Part shown: in pieces, positions 14,136 through 25,495 of the stretch | How the letters are laid out: every line of letters begins with the position of its first letter | How positions within the stretch are numbered: position 1 is the first letter of the stretch | Source: Pseudomonas sp. PSE14 | GTDB lineage: Bacteria; Pseudomonadota; Gammaproteobacteria; Pseudomonadales; Pseudomonadaceae | DNA: 64,000 bases | Direction of reading: 5' to 3' | Assembly: GCF_029203285.1 (NCBI RefSeq) | Contig: NZ_CP115669.1 | Coordinates: 1,550,001 to 1,614,000, forward strand | The notes under the pieces: generated by a model | What the model was told of the DNA's origin: nothing | What the model saw: the letters and a program-made list of their open reading frames with translations, nothing else | The model's database searches: none | Position numbers and translations under genes: made by a program

Positions 14136-14806
14136 GCCTCGTGCTCCTGGTCATGACGGTTGACCCGCTCTTCCAGGCGGTTCTGCAGGTGCGACAGGAT
14201 GCTGGCGAGCACCCAGTACAGCAGCGCGGCGGCGAGGTACATGGTGAAGACCTCGAAGGTGCGCGCGGTGATGAGTTGGGCCTGGCGGAACAGCTCCGGC
14301 ACCTGGATGGTGGCGGCCAGTGCGGTGTCCTTGACCAGCGAGATGAAGCTGTTGCCCAGCGGCGGCAGCGCGGTGCGCGCGGCCTGCGGGAGGACGACGC
14401 GGCGCAGGGTCTGGGCGCGGGTCATGCCGATGCTCGATGCGGCTTCCCATTGGCCTCGGTCGATGGAGCCGATGGCGGCGCGCAGGATCTCGCAGACATA
14501 GGCGGCCATGTTCAGCGAGAAGCCGATCAGCGCCGCGGGCAGTGGGTCGAGCTCGATGCCCAGTTGCGGCAGGCCGTAGTAGATCATGAAGAGCTGGACC
14601 AGCAACGGCGTGCCGCGGAAGAACGACACGTAGATGCGGGCGAGCCAGCTCAGGGCGGTGAATCCGTACAGGCGCATCAGCGCCAGTCCGAAACCCAGCA
14701 GCAGTCCGAAGAACATGCCGCCTACGCTGAGGACTACTGTGAAGACCGCGCCCTTGAGCAGGAAGGGCGCGGAATCCAGCGCAAGCTGCAGGCTTGCGTC
14801 GATCAT
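14132..14806 (-). CDS. tcyL: L-cystine ABC transporter, permease
   Basis: 224 residues with about five membrane segments. The polar amino-acid permease pattern is clear: FFRGTPLLVQLFMIYYG, then the EAA loop around GSIDRGQWEAASSIGMTRAQTLRRVVLPQA. Its start overlaps the tcyJ stop by four bases and its stop overlaps the tcyN start, so the three are translationally coupled. Confidence 0.9.
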
Positions 14807-15603
14807 TGGGTCACGTCAGCCTTGAACCACTTCTCCGACAGCTGCTTGAGGGTGCCGTCGGCACGCAGCTTGTCGATGGCCTTGTTCAGCGCCGCCAGCA
14901 GTTCCGGGTTGCCCTTGCGCAGGGCGATGCCGGCTTCCTGGCGGGCGAAGGGCGCGCCGGTCAGGGCCATGGCGCCATTGGTCTTGTTGACCATGTCGAA
15001 GGCGGCCAGGCGGTCCACCAGGATCACGTCGATGCGACCGCTGCGCAGGTCCTGGAACTTGGTCGGGTCGTCCTCGTAGGTGCGGACGTCGGCCTGCGGG
15101 ACGTGCTCCTTGAGCCATTGTTCGTAGTTGGTGCCCAGGCCGACGCCGACTTTCACCCCGGCGAGCTTCTCGGGGGTGTCGTACTTGCTTTCGTCACCCT
15201 TGCGCACCAGGGCCTGGATGCCGGAAACGGTGTAGGGCTCGGAGAAGTCGTACTTCTTCTTGCGCTCCTCGGAGATGGTCACCTGGTTGATCACCAGGTC
15301 CAGGCGCTTGGACTCCAGCGCGGCGAGGATGCCGTCCCACTTGGTCGGCTGGAGCTTGGCCTTGACGCCCAGTTCCTTGGCGATCAGGTCGGAGAAGTCC
15401 ACTTCGAAACCGGCGAGCTTGCCGCTCTCGTCCTGGAAGCTGAAGGGCGGGTAGGTGCCTTCGAGGCCGACGCGGACTTCGCCCTTGGACTTGAGCTGGG
15501 CGAGCAGGTCGTCGGCGGCCTGGGCCTGGCCGAACAGGCTGGCGCCAAGGGTGAGGGTCAGGCTGGCAAACAGGAAGTGACGGCGCAGTGCAGAGAAGGT
15601 CAT
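14803..15603 (-). CDS. tcyJ: L-cystine-binding periplasmic protein
   Basis: 266 residues with a cleavable signal peptide ending AQAAD. The type 3 solute-binding fold shows GLEGTYPPFSFQDESGKLAGF, LINQVTISEERKKKYDFS and GVKVGVGLGTNYEQW. This agrees with FliY/TcyJ-type cystine binders. The ATG at 15603 is preferred to an upstream TTG (15642), which would place 13 residues before the signal peptide. First gene of the transporter operon. Confidence 0.9.
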   Translation of the reverse strand: MTFSALRRHFLFASLTLTLGASLFGQAQAADDLLAQLKSKGEVRVGLEGTYPPFSFQDESGKLAGFEVDFSDLIAKELGVKAKLQPTKWDGILAALESKRLDLVINQVTISEERKKKYDFSEPYTVSGIQALVRKGDESKYDTPEKLAGVKVGVGLGTNYEQWLKEHVPQADVRTYEDDPTKFQDLRSGRIDVILVDRLAAFDMVNKTNGAMALTGAPFARQEAGIALRKGNPELLAALNKAIDKLRADGTLKQLSEKWFKADVTQ

Positions 15604-15720
15604 GGTGAGCCCCGTTTTTGGTGTTTTAAGCAGGTTAGTCAACGCGTAGCGACTATAGGGTTGTAGTTGTTATTCTATAAAATAATAAAAAATTACATGC
15701 TTAGTTTGATTTTATCTGCG
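15604..15720 (-). promoter_or_regulatory. AT-rich control region upstream of tcyJ
   Basis: The stretch 15655-15712 is strongly AT-rich (for example TATTCTATAAAATAATAAAAAATTA on the plus strand, split here as TATTCTATAAAATAATAA and its tail), in sharp contrast to the genes. On the minus strand TATAGT near 15652-15657 could be a -10. Sulfur control by a CysB-type activator is plausible but I cannot place a site. Confidence 0.4.
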
Positions 15721-16722
15721 TCAGCTCGCTGGATGGTAGGCAAACAGCGCCGGCGAGCCTCCGGTGTGCAGGAAGAGTAGCGGGCCCTGGCTGGCGAAAC
15801 GTTGACGGGCGACGCCATCGAGCAGGCCGGCCATGGCCTTGCCGGTGTAGACCGGGTCGAGCAGCAGTCCTTCGTGGCTGGCCAGCAGTCGTACCGCCTC
15901 CAGCGTGCCGGCGTTGGGTTCGCCATAGCGTGGGGCGAAGTACTCGTCCCAGAGTTCCACCTTCGGCGCCTTGGCGGTGTCCTGGCCGAGCAGCTCCAGC
16001 GTGCGCTGGATCAGTCCTTCCACTTTCGGCCGTTGCGCTGCATCGGTGCGCGAGACGGTCACGCCAATCACCGGCAGTTCTGGCAGGGCGTCGGCCAGCG
16101 CCACGGTCAACCCGGCGTGGGTGCCGGCGCTGCCGGAGGCCAGCACCACGGCGGCGAAGCGCTGGCCGCTGTGGCGAATCTGTTCGGCCAGTTCCAGCCC
16201 GGCGCGCACGTAGCCCAGCGCGCCGAGGGCGTTGGAGCCGCCGATCGGCACCAGGTAGGGTTTGCGGCCCTCACGCAGCAGGCGCTCGCCGGTCTGCTGC
16301 AGCAGTTCGTCGGCGTTGTCCAGGTTGGGCACGAGTTCGACCTCGGTGCCGAACAGGTCGAGCAGCAGGCGATTGCCGTTGCTCAGGTAATTGTGATCGC
16401 CAGTGCCGATGGGATTCTCCAGCAGCGCCACGCAGCGCAGGCCTAGCTTGGCAGCGACCGCTGCCGTCTGGCGCACGTGGTTGGACTGGATCGCCCCGGC
16501 CGTCACCAGGGTGTCGGCGCCGGCGCGCAGCGCATCCGCGGCGAGGAATTCAAGCTTGCGTACCTTGTTGCCGCCCAGCGCGAAGGGCGTGGTGTCGTCG
16601 CGCTTCACATGGATGTCGCGACCCAGGCGGGCGGAAAGCCGCTCCAGTTTTTCCAGCGGCGTCGGGCCGCCGGCCAGTTCGAGTCGAGGGAAACGGGCGA
16701 GCGATTCGCGCAGGGAGCTCAT
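15721..16722 (-). CDS. dcyD: D-cysteine desulfhydrase
   Basis: 333 residues. A PLP enzyme that converts D-cysteine to pyruvate, sulfide and ammonia. Long stretches follow E. coli Dcy[66 protein letters not shown] and [15 protein letters not shown]. The Lys of GGNKVRK is the expected PLP residue. The ATG at 16722 matches the family length better than the GTG at 16743. It lies 117 bp upstream of tcyJ on the same strand. Confidence 0.92.
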
Positions 16723-16839
16723 GGGGGAATCTCGGTTCGGCACGGTGAGGAGGCCACGATAGAGCTCCCGAGGCCGCGCGGCAATGGACTTAATACGGCG
16801 CTGCTGCAGGTGTCATCATCACGAGCTCTTCACATGTTC

Positions 16840-16864
16840 TGTTATAAGGTTACAGAAATATAAT
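16840..16864 (+). promoter_or_regulatory. Candidate Zur box within a sigma-70 promoter
   Basis: TGTTATA-A-GGTTACA (16840-16854) matches the gamma-proteobacterial Zur pattern TGTTATA-N-TATAACA perfectly in the first half and at four of seven positions in the second. A perfect -10 TATAAT follows at 16859-16864, so the box would lie in the spacer, where a repressor blocks polymerase. The -35 (about 16835-16841) is poor. The first SPFH start is about 100 bp downstream. Confidence 0.5.
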
Positions 16865-16963
16865 CGCCGGCTTCATAGAGCCTTAATCTTCTACGCTCAG
16901 GCTCGCCGGCGCGCCGCTTTCGCTCGAAAGAGGCGGGCGATCCGTTCAACCGTTGGAGCATCC

Positions 16964-18925
16964 ATGAGAGTCGACCTGGACATCGAGGACCGCAGCCTGG
17001 AAGGGCTGCCGCGTTTCCAGCGCTCGGCGTACCAGTCGCGTCGCTTGAAGCTGCTCATCTGGCTCTCGGGTGGCCTCGCCGCGTTGCTGTTCCTGATGGC
17101 GATCTTCATCGGCCTGTTCACCGCCGACTCGCTCTGGTTGCCCTTGCTGTGCAACAACGCTGCGGCGCTGCTGTTGCTGGCGGCGGTCAGCCAATCGGCC
17201 TTGCGCGTGGCCCGCTGGCGCGCTACGGCGATCGGGACCGCGGACGCGGCTGCGGCGCCTGAGGCGCCAGCCGATCTTACCCAGCTCAGTGCCTATGACC
17301 GTCTGCTCGAACGCATCAGTCGTGCGAGCCAGCGCCTGGCACAGCGCATCGGCGTTGGCGCCCTCTGGTTGGCGGGTTTGGCCCTGGTGGCCCTGTTGAT
17401 CGTCAAGGCCGGCTGGAACCTGGCGACACCTGCCGTTTCGCTGGGACAGGCGGGTTGGCTGGTCACCGGGTTGCTGACACTGACGGCGTTCGGCCTGCTG
17501 GTGGTGGAGCGCCACCTGAGCGCGGCCGGTCAGGAGGAGTGGCCCGAAGCGCACGCCTTGTCACTGATGGCGCGCTCGGTGATCGCCGTGCAACTGCTGT
17601 CCTTGCCTGGCCTGTTGTTCTCCAATGGCGAGAGCGTCTGGCCGAGCCGGTGGGTGGTGCTGGTGGGGTTGCTGCCGGCGCTGCTGGCGGCGGAGCTGAT
17701 CCTGCGCGCGCTGCTCTCGATCTTCAGCCCGCAGCGCCCGCGCGAGGAACCCCGGTTGATCGGCGAAAGCCTGGTCGCCGCGCAGTTGCGCTGGCCGCCG
17801 CGTCCGCTGCAGTTCCTGCAGGGAGAACTGCAGCAGCGTTTTGGCATCGACCTGCGTCAGGTCTGGGCCTTCGGCTTCATGCGCCGCGCCTTCCTGCCGG
17901 TGTTGGGGTTGATGCTGCTGGTGGGCTGGTTGCTGACCGGCGTCAGCGAGGTCGCCATGAACGGGCGGGGCGTCTACGAGCGCTTCGGCAAGCCGGTGGC
18001 AGTCTACCCGCCGGGGCTGCATCTCGGGCTGCCGTGGCCGTTCGGCCGCGTGCTGTCGGTGGAGAACGGGGTGATTCACGAACTGGCGACCTCCGGCGAC
18101 TCTGCCCGGGCTGACCTGTTGGTCGATGCCGAAGGACCCGCCCCGGAGGCTGCCAACCGTTTGTGGGATGCGTCCCATGTGAGCGAGAACTCGCAGGTGA
18201 TCGCCAGCGAGGCGGGCGGCCAGCAGAGCTTCCAGATCGTCAACATGGACGTGCGTTTCGTCTATCGCATCGGCTTGAGCGACAAGGCGGCGCTGGCAGC
18301 GACCTATAACAGCGCCGACGTGCCGGAGCTGATTCGCAGCACCGCCAATCGCGTGCTGGTCCACGATTTCGCTGCCCGCACCCTGGACGGCGTGCTGGGG
18401 GCGGAGCGCGAAGCGCTGGCGCGGGATATCGGCAAGGCCGTGCAGGCCGACCTCGACCGGCTGGACAGCGGCGTGGAAATTCTCGCCACCGTGGTTGAGG
18501 CGATCCATCCGCCGGCTGGCGCGGCCAATGCCTATCATGGCGTTCAGGCGGCGCAGATCACCGCCCAGGCGCTGATCGCCCGCGAGCAGGGCAAGGCCGC
18601 CGAGCAGACCAATGCCGCGCGGCAGGCTGCCAGCGCCGCTACCGACAAGGCATCCGCCGATGCCCGCGAAATCCTCGCCCAGGCCCAGTCCGCCGATCTG
18701 CGCTTCGGCGCCGAGCGCACCGCCTGGCAGCGCGCCGGGCAGGCATTCCTCCTCGAACAGTATTTCAGCCAGCTGGGCCAGGGTCTGGCCGGTGCCCGCA
18801 GCCTGGTCATCGACCACCGCCTGAGCGCGGACCAGGCACCGACCCTTGATCTGCGCAGCTTTGGCGCGCCGGTCGATCCGCAGCGCGGCAAGACCGCTAA
18901 CCGTCCCCAGGAGATCGCACCTTGA
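16964..18925 (+). CDS. Polytopic SPFH/band-7 (HflK-like) membrane protein
   Basis: 653 residues. About seven hydrophobic segments fill roughly residues 25-320 (for example LIWLSGGLAALLFLMAIFIG and LGLMLLVGWLLTGV). A band-7/SPFH domain follows, beginning GRGVYERFGKPVAVYPPGLH, then an Ala/Gln-rich coiled-coil region. Ordinary HflK has one N-terminal span, so the large membrane part is unusual. The ATG at 16964 is chosen for GGAG at 16955-16958; the frame is open 60 codons further upstream. First gene of the operon behind the Zur-like promoter. Function unknown; a scaffold for the metal ATPase is inferred. Confidence 0.85.
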   Translation: MRVDLDIEDRSLEGLPRFQRSAYQSRRLKLLIWLSGGLAALLFLMAIFIGLFTADSLWLPLLCNNAAALLLLAAVSQSALRVARWRATAIGTADAAAAPEAPADLTQLSAYDRLLERISRASQRLAQRIGVGALWLAGLALVALLIVKAGWNLATPAVSLGQAGWLVTGLLTLTAFGLLVVERHLSAAGQEEWPEAHALSLMARSVIAVQLLSLPGLLFSNGESVWPSRWVVLVGLLPALLAAELILRALLSIFSPQRPREEPRLIGESLVAAQLRWPPRPLQFLQGELQQRFGIDLRQVWAFGFMRRAFLPVLGLMLLVGWLLTGVSEVAMNGRGVYERFGKPVAVYPPGLHLGLPWPFGRVLSVENGVIHELATSGDSARADLLVDAEGPAPEAANRLWDASHVSENSQVIASEAGGQQSFQIVNMDVRFVYRIGLSDKAALAATYNSADVPELIRSTANRVLVHDFAARTLDGVLGAEREALARDIGKAVQADLDRLDSGVEILATVVEAIHPPAGAANAYHGVQAAQITAQALIAREQGKAAEQTNAARQAASAATDKASADAREILAQAQSADLRFGAERTAWQRAGQAFLLEQYFSQLGQGLAGARSLVIDHRLSADQAPTLDLRSFGAPVDPQRGKTANRPQEIAP

Positions 18926-19974
18926 GCCCGACCCTCGTCCACGGCGATCACCCGCATCACGACCATGACCACGATCACGCCCATGACCATAACCATGATC
19001 ATGGCCATCATCACGCTCATCACCATGACGAGGGGCCGGCGCGTTTCCCCTGGCGTCGCACAGCCCTGGCAAGCTTGCTGGTGCTGTTCGCTGCCGCGAC
19101 CGCTTGCCTGGTCCAGGTACGCTCCGGCGAGGCGACGGTGATTACCCGCTTCGGCAATCCCGCCCGGGTATTGCTGGAGCCCGGGCTCGCCTGGCGCCTG
19201 CCGATTCCGTTCGAGGCCGCCGTGCCGGTGGACCTGCGGCTGCGCACCACCTCCAGCGGCCTTCAGGACGTCGGCACCCGCGATGGCCTGCGGATCATCG
19301 TGCAGGCCTATGTCGCCTGGCAGGTGAAGCCCGATCCGGACAGCATCCAGCGCTTCATGCGTGCGGTGCAGAACCAGCCTGACGAGGCGGCCCGGCAGAT
19401 TCGCACCTTCGTTGGCTCAGCGCTGGAAACCTCCGCCAGCGGATTCGATCTTTCCGACCTGGTGAACACCGATGCCGGCAAGGTGCGCATCGCCGACTTC
19501 GAGCAGCGCCTGCGCGAGCAGATCGAGCGCCAGTTGCTCGATACCTACGGCGTGCGCGTGGTCCAGGTGGGCATCGAACGGCTGACGCTGCCGAAGGTTA
19601 CCCTCGGCGCCACGGTCGACCGCATGCGCGCCGAGCGCGAGACCATCGCCACCCAGCGCACCGCCGAAGGCAAGCGCAAGGCCGCGGAAATCCGCTCCGC
19701 TGCCGAGCGTGACGCGCGCATCCTGCAGGCCGACGCCACGGTGAAGGCCGCCGATATCGAGGCCCAGTCGCGGGTGCAGGCCGCGGACATCTACGGCAAG
19801 GCCTATAGCGGCTCGCCCGAGCTGTACAACATGCTGCGCTCGCTGGACACCCTCGGCACCCTGGTCAACCCCGGCACGCGCCTGGTGCTGCGTACCGACG
19901 CGGCGCCGTTCCGCGTGCTGGTGGATGGCCCGCCGCAGCAACCGTCCGCCAAGCCGGTCAATGCCCATGACTGA
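18922..19974 (+). CDS. SPFH/band-7 protein with His-rich N-terminal tail
   Basis: 350 residues. Residues 7-35 are almost entirely His, Asp and Asn (alternating HD/HH), a likely cytosolic metal-binding tail. One membrane span follows (about 48-66), then a band-7 domain (SGEATVITRFGNPARVLLEPGLAWRLP) and an Ala/Arg/Glu-rich coiled coil ending in HflC-like YNMLRSLDTLG. The start is TTG at 18922, overlapping the previous stop (TTGA) with GGAG eight bases upstream. This pairs with its neighbours as an HflK/HflC-like complex. Confidence 0.87.
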   Translation: MSPTLVHGDHPHHDHDHDHAHDHNHDHGHHHAHHHDEGPARFPWRRTALASLLVLFAAATACLVQVRSGEATVITRFGNPARVLLEPGLAWRLPIPFEAAVPVDLRLRTTSSGLQDVGTRDGLRIIVQAYVAWQVKPDPDSIQRFMRAVQNQPDEAARQIRTFVGSALETSASGFDLSDLVNTDAGKVRIADFEQRLREQIERQLLDTYGVRVVQVGIERLTLPKVTLGATVDRMRAERETIATQRTAEGKRKAAEIRSAAERDARILQADATVKAADIEAQSRVQAADIYGKAYSGSPELYNMLRSLDTLGTLVNPGTRLVLRTDAAPFRVLVDGPPQQPSAKPVNAHD

Positions 19975-21007
19975 CCGGCGGGAGGAGGGCACGAGCCCCT
20001 GGCTGCAGGCCGGGCGCCTGGCATTCCTGGCGCTGTATGGGGTGACCCTGCTGGCGGCGCTCGGCTGGGCGCTGTCCAATGTGCGCCAGATCGGCCCGGA
20101 AAGCCGTGCCGTGGTCCTGCGCATGGGGGCGCTGGAGCGCATCCAGAACGCCGGATTGCTGCTGGCCTGGCCGCGTCCGTTCGAGCAGGTGGTGGTCCTG
20201 CCGTCTGCCGACCGGGTGATCGAGCGCCGGGTGGAGACCCTGCTGCGCTCGGGGCTGGCGCAGAAATCCGATCTGGATGGCAGTCTCGCCAACGACGCCA
20301 CCGCGGGCTCCGGCTATCTGCTCACCGGCGATGCCGGCGTGGTGCAGCTGGATGTGCGGGTGTTCTACAAGGTCACCGCCCCCTACGATTTCGTGCTCCA
20401 GGGCGATCACGTGCTGCCGGCGCTGGACCGGCTGGTGGCGCGCAATGCGGTGGCGGTGTGCGCATCGCGCGACCTGGACACCATCCTGGTCGCCCGCCCC
20501 GAGCTGATCGGCGCCGACAGCAGCGTCGCCGAGCGCCGCGAACGGCTGCGCGGCGATCTGCAACAGGGCATCAATCGCAGCCTGGCCGCGCTGGTGTCGG
20601 CCGGCAATGGCCTGGGTATCGAAGTCGAGCGTGTGGACGTGCAGTCCTCGTTGCCACGCGAGGCGGTGAGCGCCTTCAATGCGGTGCTGACCGCCAGCCA
20701 GCAGGCGGAGCAGGGCGTCGCCGCGGCGCAGAATGACGCCGCCCGGCAGCTCCAGGCGGCCAACCAGGCCGCCGATCGTACGCTGCAGGTTGCCCGTGCC
20801 CAGGCCAGCGAGCGCCTGGCCCGCTCCCAGGCGGACACCGCCACCATCACCAGTCTTGCGCAGGCCCAGCAGCAACATGCCGACCCCGGGCTGCTGCTGC
20901 GCCTGTACCGCGAGCGCGTACCGGGCATCCTGTCCCGCGCAGGTTCGGTGACCACGGTCGATCCACGCGATTCCGGACACCTGATCCTGGAGGGGCCGCA
21001 GCCGTGA
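19961..21007 (+). CDS. SPFH/band-7 (HflK-like) protein, third of the set
   Basis: 348 residues. One N-terminal membrane span (LAFLALYGVTLLAALGWAL), a band-7 domain (SRAVVLRMGALERIQNAGLLLAWPRPFEQV), then a long Ala/Gln coiled coil (QQAEQGVAAAQNDAARQLQ). The order resembles HflK. Starts at 19961 or 19967 are both possible; both lie inside the end of the preceding gene. Its last bases overlap a possible GTG start of the next small frame. Confidence 0.85.
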   Translation: MPMTDRREEGTSPWLQAGRLAFLALYGVTLLAALGWALSNVRQIGPESRAVVLRMGALERIQNAGLLLAWPRPFEQVVVLPSADRVIERRVETLLRSGLAQKSDLDGSLANDATAGSGYLLTGDAGVVQLDVRVFYKVTAPYDFVLQGDHVLPALDRLVARNAVAVCASRDLDTILVARPELIGADSSVAERRERLRGDLQQGINRSLAALVSAGNGLGIEVERVDVQSSLPREAVSAFNAVLTASQQAEQGVAAAQNDAARQLQAANQAADRTLQVARAQASERLARSQADTATITSLAQAQQQHADPGLLLRLYRERVPGILSRAGSVTTVDPRDSGHLILEGPQP

Positions 21008-21144
21008 GCTCGCTGATCGCCGGAGGCTGTGAATCAATGTGCGGACAGTCTTGCGGCGAACCGCTACGCTCGCAGTGCAAGCCCGGCACCTTCGTCCGGG
21101 CGGATAACGACAATCAGGAACACCAGGGGCGGGACATCCAATGA
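21004..21144 (+). CDS. Possible Cys-containing micro-protein in the SPFH-ATPase operon
   Basis: A 46-codon frame starts with GTG overlapping the previous stop (GTGA, 21004-21007) and ends with TGA overlapping the next start (ATGA, 21141-21144). It encodes four Cys in the pattern C-x3-C-x3-C-x8-C (GGCESMCGQSCGEPLRSQC). An internal ATG at 21037 has GGAGG upstream. Double coupling and Cys content in a metal operon make it plausible, but it is short and has no recognised family. Confidence 0.45.
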   Translation: MSSLIAGGCESMCGQSCGEPLRSQCKPGTFVRADNDNQEHQGRDIQ

Positions 21145-21593
21145 CATCAGCCGGACTTCACTCCATCCATGAATCCCCACGCTCGCTGCGACGCCTGGCC
21201 CTGCAATGCCTGGGCGCGCTGGCGCTGGTGCTGGGCTGCAGCCTCCCGGCGCAGGCCGACCGGGTCCTGCCGTCGGGCATGATGCTGGCTTTCGTCGACT
21301 ATGCGCAGTTCCCGACGATCACTCTGAAGCGCCCCAGGCCCAGCCTGCTCAAGCAGATACTCACCCTTGGTCTGTACAGAAAGAACATCACCTATCCGGT
21401 AGCGGCGTCCGTGCGCATTCGCGACGAGGACAACCACTTCCTCGTGAACGGAATGATGCCGCTGCTCAAGGGCAAGGTCGTTGCCGTCAAGCCCGGCATC
21501 GACAAGCAGATCAACCAGATCTGGGTCCTGACCGAAGCGGAGGCCAACGAATACGCCACCCGGCCGGGAACCCTCTTCCCCCCCATCAATTAA
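21141..21593 (+). CDS. Secreted hypothetical protein in the SPFH-ATPase operon
   Basis: 150 residues. A signal peptide (residues about 18-39, LALQCLGALALVLGCSLPAQAD) directs it to the periplasm. The mature part is basic, with FPTITLKRPRPSLLKQILTLG and a C-terminal EANEYATRPGTLFPP. There is no His-rich or Cys-rich metal site. I do not recognise the family. It lies 18 bp before the ATPase gene, so a periplasmic partner role is possible. Confidence 0.75.
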   Translation: MTSAGLHSIHESPRSLRRLALQCLGALALVLGCSLPAQADRVLPSGMMLAFVDYAQFPTITLKRPRPSLLKQILTLGLYRKNITYPVAASVRIRDEDNHFLVNGMMPLLKGKVVAVKPGIDKQINQIWVLTEAEANEYATRPGTLFPPIN

Positions 21594-21611
21594 AGCAGGC
21601 ACCTTCGCGGT

Positions 21612-23576
21612 ATGAGCGTTCACCACCATCACGGCCATGCGCACCACGGCCACTCCCATGGCCACCTTACCGGTGGAATGCTCACCCGCGACGAGCAGCG
21701 CAGCGCGGCGCGCCAACTCAGTCTGGCGATGATCGCCCTCGGCCTGCTGGTGCTGGGCCTGCTCTGGCGTTGGTTCGCCCCGCAACAGGAAGGCGTGGCG
21801 CAGGTGCTCCTGGGCGTCGCGTCCCTGCTGGTAGCGGTACCGGTGCTGCGCTCGGGCTGGTACAGCCTGCGTCATCCCAGCCTGCACGGCATCACCGACC
21901 AGCTCATCGCCCTGGCCATGCTGGGCGCCTGGGCCACCGGCGACCTGATGACCGCTGCGTTGCTGCCCATCATCATGATCTTCGGGCACGTGCTGGAAGA
22001 ACGCAGCGTGATCGGCTCGCAGGAGGCTATCGAGGCGCTGGGACGTCTGACCCGCAGCCAGGCCCGGCTGATTGTCGACGATGGCAGCGTGCGTGAAGTC
22101 GACAACGGCGAGTTGCGGCCGGGCGACCAGGTGGAAGTCCGCGCGGGGGATCGAGTGCCTGCCGATGGCCGAGTGCTGGAAGGCCAGGCCAGCCTGGACA
22201 CCGCACCGATCACCGGCGAGTCGGTGCCGCTGGAGGCAGGCGTCGGCATGGACGTCTATGGCGGCGCGATCAACCTCGACGGCCTGCTGCGCATCGAAGT
22301 GACCCGCACCGGCGATGCCTCCACCCTCGGCAAGGTCATCGCCCTGATGCAGCGCGCCGAACAGTCCAAGCCGCCCATCACGCGCCTGCTGGAACGCTAT
22401 GCCGGGCGCTATATGGTGCTGGTGCTGCTGATCGCCGCCGTCACCTGGTTCATCACCAACGACCCGCAGGCCATGCTGGCCGTGCTGGTCGCCGCCTGTC
22501 CCTGTGCGCTGGTGCTGTCGGCGCCGGCCACCGCCATCGCCGGCATAGCCGTTGCGGCTCGCCACGGCATCCTGATTCGCAGCTCGGCGTTCCTCGAAGA
22601 ACTGGCCGACCTGACCTCCCTGGTAATCGACAAGACCGGCACCCTGACCTACGGCGCGCTGCGTCTGCAGGCCGTGCGTACGGAGTCTGGCGAGACCCGG
22701 GGCGACATCGAGCGACTGGCCGCCAGTCTGGGCGCCGCCAGTAGCCACCCAGTGAGTCGCGCACTGGCGTCGCTAGCTCCCCACGATGCGCATCACTCGC
22801 TCGCCGACATCCACGAACGGCAAGGCTTGGGTGTAGTCGCCCGGACCGAACAGGGTGAAGCCGCCCTCGGCCGCCCGGAACTGTTCGCCCGTCTGGGGAT
22901 TTCGACGCCGGCGGTGCCGGATCACGATGGCCCCATCGCCGGATTGTCGCTGGGTGGGCGTTTCCTTGCGTGGTTGCTGCTCGCCGACAGCGTTCGCCCG
23001 GAGGCCACCCACGCGGTGGCGGATCTGCGGGAGCTGGGCCTGGGCCGGCAACTGCTGCTTACCGGCGACCGCCAGAGCGTGGCCGATGCGCTGGCCCGTG
23101 AGGTCGGCATCGACAGCGTGGTTGCCCAGGCCCTGCCGGAAGACAAGCTGGCACGGGTCAACGAGGAAATCCGCAAGGGCTTCCGGCCGCTGGTCGTGGG
23201 CGACGGCATCAACGACTCGCTGGCACTCAAGGCCGGCGTGGTCGGGGTGGCGATGGGCGCCGGTGGCGCGGATATCGCCCTGGCTTCGGCGGATATCGTG
23301 CTGATCGGCAGCGATCTTCGTCGTCTGGGCACCTGCGTGCGCCTGAGCCGTCAGTGCCGCAGCACCCTGCAGGTCAACGTGCTGATCGGTCTGGGCTGGA
23401 CCCTGGCCATCGTCGCGGCCGCCGCTTTTGGTCTGCTGGGCGCTGCCGGGGCAATGATCGCGGCGATCCTGCACAACCTCAGCACCCTCCTGGTATTGGG
23501 CAATGCCGGCCGCCTGCTGCGTTTCGACGAGGCCCTCGGACAGCCGGGCGCTCGTCTTGTCGACGTGCCGGCGTGA
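21612..23576 (+). CDS. P1B-type heavy-metal transporting ATPase with His-rich N-terminus
   Basis: 654 residues. It has TGES (201-204), the metal-transit CPC (296-298), the phosphorylation motif DKTGT (340-344), the P1B-specific HP pair (379-380) and GDGIND (530-535). Instead of a CxxC ferredoxin-like domain the N-terminus carries about ten His (residues 4-18). This suits zinc or a similar divalent ion. I recall the P. aeruginosa importer HmtA (PA2435) in the same context; the direction of transport cannot be read from sequence. Confidence 0.92.
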   Translation: MSVHHHHGHAHHGHSHGHLTGGMLTRDEQRSAARQLSLAMIALGLLVLGLLWRWFAPQQEGVAQVLLGVASLLVAVPVLRSGWYSLRHPSLHGITDQLIALAMLGAWATGDLMTAALLPIIMIFGHVLEERSVIGSQEAIEALGRLTRSQARLIVDDGSVREVDNGELRPGDQVEVRAGDRVPADGRVLEGQASLDTAPITGESVPLEAGVGMDVYGGAINLDGLLRIEVTRTGDASTLGKVIALMQRAEQSKPPITRLLERYAGRYMVLVLLIAAVTWFITNDPQAMLAVLVAACPCALVLSAPATAIAGIAVAARHGILIRSSAFLEELADLTSLVIDKTGTLTYGALRLQAVRTESGETRGDIERLAASLGAASSHPVSRALASLAPHDAHHSLADIHERQGLGVVARTEQGEAALGRPELFARLGISTPAVPDHDGPIAGLSLGGRFLAWLLLADSVRPEATHAVADLRELGLGRQLLLTGDRQSVADALAREVGIDSVVAQALPEDKLARVNEEIRKGFRPLVVGDGINDSLALKAGVVGVAMGAGGADIALASADIVLIGSDLRRLGTCVRLSRQCRSTLQVNVLIGLGWTLAIVAAAAFGLLGAAGAMIAAILHNLSTLLVLGNAGRLLRFDEALGQPGARLVDVPA

Positions 23577-24299: not shown

Positions 24300-24430
24300 A
24301 GTAAGGCGATTGCCGAGCGTGGCGGAAGGCCGTTGTCCTGCGAGGCCTCTGCTGCCGCTGGTGGGCGAAGTCGCTACACTGCTGGCACTTCAGGGCTCTC
24401 GTCAGTCGGCCCTCTCAGAGCAGGATGCGT

Positions 24431-25495
24431 ATGTCGATCTACCAGCCCCCCCTGACGTTGACTCCGGCGATGTTCTCGTTGGTGGCGGAGCTTGCCGAGC
24501 GTATCGGGCGTCTGGCCGCTGGTCAGGAGCGCTCATTGACGCCGCAGCTTCGGCGCGGCAATCGAATCCGCACTATTCAGGCGTCCCTGGCGATTGAGAA
24601 CAACACCCTGAGCGTCGAGCAGGTGACGGCGCTATTGGAAGGGCGGCGGGTTTTGGGGTTGCCCCGGGAAATCCAGGAAGTTCGCAATGCCTTCCGAGCC
24701 TATGAGCAGTTGCCTCAATGGCGGGCGGACTCGGTAGCTGACCTGCTGGCTGCCCATGGTTGTCTGCTGGAGGGTCTGATCGACGAGGCGGGGCGTTTTC
24801 GTCAGGGTGGGGTGGGGATCTACCGGGAACAGATGCTATTGCACATGCCTCCACCGGCTAGCCGGGTGCCTCTGCTGGTCGAGCAGTTGCTGGGCTGGCT
24901 GGGGCGGACGGATTGGCATCCGCTGATAGCAAGCTGTGTGTTCCATTACGAGTTTGAATTCATTCATCCGTTCAGCGACGGCAACGGGCGCATGGGGCGT
25001 TTGTGGCAGACATTGCTGCTTGGTCGCTGGAATCCCGTGCTCGCCTATCTTCCGGTGGAGACCGTGATCCATGCCCGGCAGGCCTCCTACTATGCGGCGC
25101 TTGCCGAGTCGGATCGTCAGGCGGAGGCCACGCCCTTTGTATTGTTCATGTTGCAGGCATTGTTGTCGGCGGTGGATGAGGTGGCCGTCGCTGGGGAAGC
25201 GGATTCGCGGAGTGACCTAGTAAGTGACCCAGTAAGTGACCCAGTAGACGGTGAGATCGAGCCGTCCGTTCGACGCTTGCTGTCACTGTTCCAACCGGGG
25301 GATGTGCTGAAGATCGGGGACATGATGGGACGCCTGTCGTTGTCACATCGCACGAGCTTCCGCAACAACTACCTGAACCCCGCACTGACGGCGGGCTGGC
25401 TGGAAATGACCCAGCCGGACTCTCCGCGCAGTCCAACCCAGGGGTATCGCCTTACCGCCCGCGGGCGACGGCTGCTCGCAGCAACCGGGGTCTAA
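24431..25495 (+). CDS. Class II Fic-domain protein (predicted AMP-transferase)
   Basis: 354 residues. The Fic motif HPFSDGNGRMGR is complete at residues 179-190; Fic enzymes usually move AMP from ATP to a target side chain. The N-terminal inhibitory motif is also present (S52-LAI-E56-N57), whose Glu blocks the ATP site, so the enzyme is probably self-inhibited until released. A C-terminal winged-helix-like region (GRLSLSHRTSFRNNYL) follows a repeat-encoded linker. The ATG at 24431 is preferred because the AGCAGG ends at 24424. No antitoxin gene is adjacent. Confidence 0.88.
   Translation: MSIYQPPLTLTPAMFSLVAELAERIGRLAAGQERSLTPQLRRGNRIRTIQASLAIENNTLSVEQVTALLEGRRVLGLPREIQEVRNAFRAYEQLPQWRADSVADLLAAHGCLLEGLIDEAGRFRQGGVGIYREQMLLHMPPPASRVPLLVEQLLGWLGRTDWHPLIASCVFHYEFEFIHPFSDGNGRMGRLWQTLLLGRWNPVLAYLPVETVIHARQASYYAALAESDRQAEATPFVLFMLQALLSAVDEVAVAGEADSRSDLVSDPVSDPVDGEIEPSVRRLLSLFQPGDVLKIGDMMGRLSLSHRTSFRNNYLNPALTAGWLEMTQPDSPRSPTQGYRLTARGRRLLAATGV
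25211..25246 (+). repeat. Three tandem 12-bp repeats inside the Fic gene
   Basis: AGTGACCTAGTA followed by two copies of AGTGACCCAGTA. They encode a Ser-Asp-x-Val linker between the Fic core and the C-terminal DNA-binding-like region. Being in-frame multiples of three, copy changes would only lengthen or shorten the linker. Confidence 0.85.

Follow-up and report, generated by a model that had tools for sequence, protein, structure and literature searches.

The closest described relative of the gene cluster analysed here is the PA2434-PA2439 cluster of Pseudomonas aeruginosa, which is cited from the accessible passages of the papers concerned. A 2026 survey of the SPFH (band-7) membrane proteins of that species names three of them PaFlo5-7 and places their genes in one operon, and it reports the operon, together with its surroundings, from a small number of species that belong to different classes and suggests horizontal transfer (PMC13086221). 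Two papers state that hmtA, the gene of a P1B-type metal ATPase, is adjacent to these SPFH genes, and in the published passages a joint function is neither proposed nor tested. The cluster has been linked to zinc: a znuA mutant had PA2434, PA2435 and PA2437-PA2439 induced 5.6- to 14.4-fold, the Zur site being weak (PMC4542158); the PA2439 promoter was gel-shifted by Zur in a zinc-dependent way (PMC8531726); the PA2435 and PA2437-PA2439 proteins were raised under zinc depletion (PMC11761036); PA2437-PA2439 were among the genes raised by N-acetylcysteine as a zinc chelator (PMC9431628); and HmtA was raised by calprotectin (PMC8557868). Our subject is a locus of the same kind in a 64,000-nucleotide stretch of the Pseudomonas sp. 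PSE14 genome (the window; positions 1550001-1614000 of a single-contig genome of 5.98 Mb, with coordinates below given as window positions), in which the genes of three SPFH proteins, here called A, B and C, precede the gene of an HmtA-type P1B ATPase (Table 1). By gene order and published annotation it matches PA2439-PA2435; an earlier note on this DNA had put HmtA in a similar neighbourhood, and published papers do place hmtA beside the trio.

What is new here is the linkage of the trio and the ATPase across genomes and plasmids. In the family sample, A (E ≤ 1e-60) and the ATPase (E ≤ 1e-150) were found in the identical 64 of 298 genomes, and in all 64 they lie on one contig and one strand with a gap of 2022-2769 base pairs (bp); two of the 64 A matches contain a TGA. 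The phylum sample likewise has both in the identical 10 of 398 genomes, counting A orthologues of at least 47% identity and ATPases at E ≤ 1e-130 and leaving out 29 further A matches of 23-28% identity that cover the SPFH half, from residue 289 on. Among 89 loci inspected (nine from the genome search and the best 80 of 369 relatives, all titled Pseudomonas), A, B, C and the ATPase stand together in 88, L058 and L128 having part of the ATPase only, and the 89th (L097) ends just after A at a contig end. The earlier note had named the absence of such co-occurrence as its own refutation; in these samples the co-occurrence is complete. The survey, for comparison, found the trio in two of 10 other Pseudomonas reference genomes (PMC13086221) versus the 64 of 298 family genomes here. 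Because the sampled genomes are related, 64 and 88 do not count independent events, and more weight belongs to the presence of copies in three classes. Ten plasmid records have A at E ≤ 1e-40 and eight have the ATPase at E ≤ 1e-150; five loci from the 10 records with A were examined, and each has the complete A-B-C-ATPase order. They belong to Rhizobium tumorigenes, R. lusitanum, Paraburkholderia sprentiae, Klebsiella aerogenes and Burkholderia ubonensis, which represent three proteobacterial classes; the P. sprentiae and B. ubonensis ATPases, 57-58% identical to that of the window, do not reach the cut-off of E ≤ 1e-150.

Table 1. Features of the SPFH-ATPase locus (window positions).
Feature	Position	Strand	Remarks
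Zur-box-like imperfect palindrome TGTTATAAGGTTACA	16840..16854	+	about 110 bp 5' of gene A; 3 mismatches to TGTTATANTATAACA
Gene A, 653-residue HflK-like SPFH protein, N-terminal domain with six extra membrane spans	16964..18925	+	PF01145 2.2e-19
Gene B, HflC-like SPFH protein, His-rich N-tail ahead of single span	18922..19974	+	PF01145 1.7e-32; TTG start
Gene C, HflK-like SPFH protein with one N-terminal span	19961..21007	+	PF01145 1.2e-18
46-residue Cys-containing open frame, probably not a gene	21004..21144	+	no coding signature
150-residue predicted secreted protein, accessory, genus-restricted	21141..21593	+	coding pattern
HmtA-type P1B ATPase, CPC motif, His-rich N-terminus, without HMA domain	21612..23576	+	TIGR01525 526 bits; PF00122 3.3e-53

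On the P. sprentiae plasmid, A is preceded by a CobW protein gene and a zinc ATP-binding cassette (ABC) operon, the closest of these genes at a distance of about 3.5 kb; together with a PCu(A)C copper chaperone gene near the cassette (L139 34-4817, 7179-7628) they give the appearance of a metal-starvation island. The K. aerogenes plasmid (L140 8443-14169) is typed as conjugative, and a transposase gene of the Tn3 family follows the ATPase gene there at a distance of about 2.4 kb. A Pfam search of the neighbours of the cassette in two genomes gave no common zinc theme.

All three proteins of the trio are members of the Band_7/SPFH family, as the earlier note had read them (PF01145, 70.6, 113.3 and 68.3 bits for A, B and C against a gathering cut-off of 23.6). 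In sequence, B and C correspond to the cage proteins HflC/HflK, the nearest solved sequence to C being HflK. The equivalog scores lie under their cut-offs, both for HflK (TIGR01933, A 56.3 and C 88 bits, cut-off 159.4) and for HflC (TIGR01932, B 102.9 bits, cut-off 134.4). Eight SPFH matches were found in this genome, two of which form a separate adjacent pair at genome positions 5246477-5247987, presumably the canonical hflKC; B is closest to one member of this pair (27% identity) and C to the other (24%), and the closest SPFH protein to A in its own genome is C (28%). With B and C thus paralogues of HflC and HflK, could the trio act as a canonical HflKC that encloses or modulates the zinc protease FtsH in zinc starvation, the ATPase being merely co-regulated or a substrate? 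Two P. aeruginosa studies do mention FtsH when listing these genes (PMC11761036, PMC9431628). We nevertheless think this unlikely: A never occurs without the ATPase in the 64 and 10 genomes above, where a merely co-regulated neighbour should sometimes part from the trio; the annotations of four plasmid stretches include no ftsH within some 9 kb; and the separate hflKC-like pair coexists with the trio in this genome.

B and C have one membrane span apiece, and because arginines precede the spans their N-termini are suggested to be cytosolic and their SPFH domains periplasmic, as in HflKC. The earlier note's SPFH protein with a His-rich tail is B, whose tail is N-terminal to its single span and has at least eight His ahead of that span in 88 of 88 loci (median 15). 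The ATPase of the window has a His-rich N-terminus as well, but as a general feature this was not supported: at least five His are present in the pump's N-tail in about 21 of 88 loci and at most two in 57 (estimates, with starts guessed from the first Met). The conserved metal-binding stretch is therefore mostly on the scaffold and not on the pump, which it would then serve. A more modest role for the trio would be that of a general aid to membrane-domain formation or to the stability of the pump (as a lipid patch or a shield against proteolysis), in which case the pump would not be enclosed and the tail would play no part in metal handling. The organisation of membrane domains is a widely proposed function of SPFH proteins (PMC13086221), the tail of B varies in length among loci, and a His-rich tail is present in three of the four plasmid B proteins inspected, the Klebsiella protein having none. 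Such a role is quite improbable in our view, since the tail is kept in all 88 loci and since three distinct paralogues, one of them with seven spans, that stay together in 88 of 89 loci suggest a specific assembly. In one locus (L039 7135-8118) gene B appears as two adjoining open frames where other loci have one.

The seven-span SPFH protein of the earlier note is A, in which hydropathy gives seven hydrophobic segments, each within a helix of an AlphaFold2 model (single chain, 46 sequences; mean predicted local distance difference test score 63) whose N-terminal bundle helices are mostly confident. The first 309 residues have no Pfam family match at E ≤ 1, and a Foldseek search of the Protein Data Bank (PDB) with A gave nothing at E ≤ 0.001. 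Across the 46 sequences no His or Cys within residues 1-330 reaches 95% conservation, so by sequence the extra domain is more likely structural than metal-conducting. Weak Foldseek matches to YiiP, ZnT3 and ZnT7 (E 0.95-2.0, probability 0.20-0.54) had prompted consideration of the six-span domain as a transporter like the cation diffusion facilitators; this candidate was dropped for the want of any match at E ≤ 0.001 and of conserved His or Cys.

The ATPase is of the P1B metal-transport type, with E1-E2 ATPase and HAD domains (PF00122 and PF00702), the DKTGT sequence (residues 340-344) and the CPx motif, here CPC at 296-298, both motifs being invariant in 10 sequences. It scores 526.1 bits against a cut-off of 346.25 in TIGR01525, in agreement with the pump described in the earlier note, and it passes the cadmium-family subgroup TIGR01512 (489.8 vs 313.5 bits) and fails the copper subfamily TIGR01511 (359.5 vs 397 bits) and the ZntA equivalog cut-offs (307.7 vs 1005 and 277 vs 1240 bits). 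When it is aligned to ZntA (4umv), the Lys of transmembrane segment 7 (TM7) and the Asp of TM8, which we take to be the role-bearing marks of ZntA-type (P1B-2) pumps, are both absent; TM8 reads H621-N622-L-S-T. No HMA domain was found in it at E ≤ 1. Four other P1B pumps of this genome were scanned (a further 693-residue frame with two short matches was left out), and they have HMA, ATPase-cat_bd or YHS/HMBD domains, full or partial, the HMA match in L143 (19.8 bits) being under its cut-off; the other P1B ATPases of this genome are 34-38% identical to the ATPase over the matched part.

Is the locus under zinc control? The earlier note's starting point, 16840, coincides with the first base of the Zur-box-like site TGTTATAAGGTTACA. 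Such a box is not significant by itself: with up to 3 mismatches to the consensus TGTTATANTATAACA this genome has 13 sites versus 17 for a reversed control pattern, so a match to the consensus alone proves nothing. Within 300 bp 5' of A, a site with at most 4 mismatches is present in 82 of 90 loci (the upstream position is approximate for L039), against a background of 2.4% for 1577 random 300-bp stretches drawn from these loci and of about 6% for mononucleotide shuffles. Two of the best sites of the genome precede a DksA-like gene (0 mismatches) and the gene of a His-rich secreted protein (2 mismatches); judged by eye, these genes look like dksA2 and PA4063, known targets of Zur. By similarity the site ahead of A is a candidate box for control by Zur, and the zinc link drawn in the earlier note stands as far as the recurrent box and the published Zur binding, RNA-seq and proteomics in P. 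aeruginosa go. A second Zur-box-like site, TGTTATTCTATAAAA (15668-15682, 2 mismatches, possibly a chance match), precedes by 26 bp a solute-binding protein gene on the minus strand (14803-15642, PF00497), and the gene of a pyridoxal phosphate-dependent enzyme (15721-16743, PF00291) adjoins that gene and the site.

Zur control and induction by zinc starvation fit uptake better than they fit an ATPase that exports metal under a periplasmic dome, loading or storing zinc or copper for periplasmic proteins, in which case the reported import would be indirect. For export it can be said that P-type metal pumps usually perform efflux, that import by HmtA, in the words of one review, 'needs further analyses' (PMC10393844), and that a periplasmic SPFH dome would lie on the export side of the pump. 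The same review cites reports that HmtA overexpression raises intracellular zinc and copper (PMC10393844), a second review gives import by HmtA as fact (PMC8456098), and we hold export to be quite improbable.

One functional system is the simplest explanation for a linkage that is complete in the samples, for plasmids that carry the entire unit, for zinc control and for a His tail that sits on the scaffold. The conserved four-gene grouping suggests, short of proof, that the pump is held by the scaffold under zinc scarcity. We tentatively put forward a zinc-starvation cassette of the following kind. Its gene content, its linkage, the recurrent box, the lack of an HMA domain in the pump and the constant His tail of B are observed here, and Zur binding, induction in zinc starvation and overexpression data read as import come from published work on P. 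aeruginosa; we infer the topology, the assembly, the enclosure, the role of the domain of A and the action of the His tails in trans. A, B and C would form a hetero-oligomeric ring or dome of the HflK/HflC type on the periplasmic face, anchored in the inner membrane, that would organise and probably enclose the HmtA-type ATPase while this brings zinc, and perhaps copper too, into the cytosol. The six-span domain of A would make contact with the pump at the level of the membrane, and the His-rich cytosolic tails that B would contribute in many copies to each ring would replace the pump's missing N-terminal metal-binding domain and catch or buffer the imported metal at the pump exit. Zinc-loaded Zur would switch the operon off. 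Its strongest form, a genetically dedicated three-component SPFH 'membrane encapsulin' that closes around an importing P1B ATPase and provides its metal-binding domain in trans from a ring of His-rich cytosolic tails, making a zinc-uptake compartment, we consider doubtful; enclosure as such has a direct precedent in the stomatin domes that enclose AQP1 and UT-B (PMC12407830, a preprint).

Several observations weigh against the cassette. Besides the relatedness of the genomes counted, the bare Klebsiella B protein, the lack of conserved His or Cys in the domain of A and the reservation about HmtA import, all given above, the SPFH part of the AlphaFold2 model of A is of low confidence, four plasmid loci tested for a Zur-like box ahead of A had none at up to 4 mismatches, and no physical association of SPFH proteins with HmtA was found in print. 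In one study of P. aeruginosa, hmtA mRNA was constantly low and was not repressed by added zinc (PMC8531726), and a review has Zur binding the promoters of uptake genes except that of hmtA (PMC10393844). Among the PA2435 and PA2437-PA2439 proteins in the accessible part of the proteome table only PA2438, by one method, reached p < 0.05 (PMC11761036). Deletion of paFlo5-7 in PA14 gave mild phenotypes only, with the growth test in lysogeny broth (LB) (PMC13086221); that medium is a possible reason for the near-silence of SPFH deletions in P. aeruginosa. In its accessible text the same survey does not contain the word HmtA and mentions zinc once, in connection with FtsH. A literature search over titles and the beginnings of abstracts, among the matches listed and with few subscription papers, found no proposal of an SPFH compartment around an HmtA pump. 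The earlier note's remark that the arrangement had not been described as such can thus be kept for the compartment, within the literature searched, and not for the operon, the adjacency of hmtA or the zinc control, which are already in print.

The remaining parts of the locus are more variable. All operon parts described in the earlier note are present in the sequence, and they are as tightly spaced as it had said, with overlaps of 4-14 bp (4 bp between A and B) or otherwise an 18-bp gap; a scan for sigma-70 promoters found none. The Cys-containing frame that the earlier note had listed as a coupled micro-frame was not supported as a gene. It occurs in two of 93 loci searched, both of them the nearest relatives, and there has lost two of its four Cys, and its base changes are even over the codon positions (4, 3, 4 and 4, 3, 2), whereas a neighbouring gene has the pattern of coding sequence (12, 3, 23 and 11, 1, 29); on account of the even changes and the lost Cys it was rejected as a metallochaperone gene. 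The secreted protein does have a coding pattern by codon position, with no Pfam match at E ≤ 1. Of 198 family genomes 24 have it, and these belong to a single genus; 11 of the 24 lack the operon, nine have the gene inside it and four have it elsewhere. It lies between C and the ATPase in five of the 88 four-gene loci. It is present in the operon as claimed, but its restriction to one genus and the 11 carriers without the operon exclude it as a core part. Shortly 3' of the operon, at 24425-25495, is a gene of a Fic/DOC family protein (PF02661, PF21247).

The cassette bears on two open questions, namely which clients bacterial SPFH rings have besides FtsH and how a P1B pump can work in zinc uptake, and a four-gene unit that is constant across classes and plasmids is a small testable system for both. 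How does it compare with the systems already known? The P. aeruginosa PA2434-PA2439 cluster (the PaFlo5-PaFlo6-PaFlo7 operon plus HmtA) shares with it the three SPFH genes followed by the HmtA ATPase, and has a promoter shifted by Zur and induction by zinc starvation (PMC4542158, PMC8531726, PMC11761036); it is that of another species. The P1B ATPases ZntA (4umv), CopA (3rfu) and 7qbz resemble the pump in their core domains, CPC or SPC site and DKTGT, whereas the HmtA-type pump here is without an HMA domain, has no Lys in TM7 where ZntA has one, and reads HNLST in TM8 compared with DTGAT in ZntA, MALSS in CopA and HEGST in 7qbz. The HflK-HflC complex, the cage that modulates FtsH, has the SPFH domain in common with the trio, provides the nearest solved relatives, and is like B and C in their single span and putative cytosolic N-terminus. 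It differs in having two members rather than three; here one member has six extra spans and another a His tail, the trio is linked to a metal pump, and the scores are under the HflK and HflC equivalog cut-offs. The stomatin dome, an SPFH oligomer that holds a transporter in a membrane patch, shows the mode of action proposed for the system here; stomatin is a human red-cell protein, homo-oligomeric and with no dedicated operon, and it holds channels rather than an ATP-driven pump (PMC12407830).

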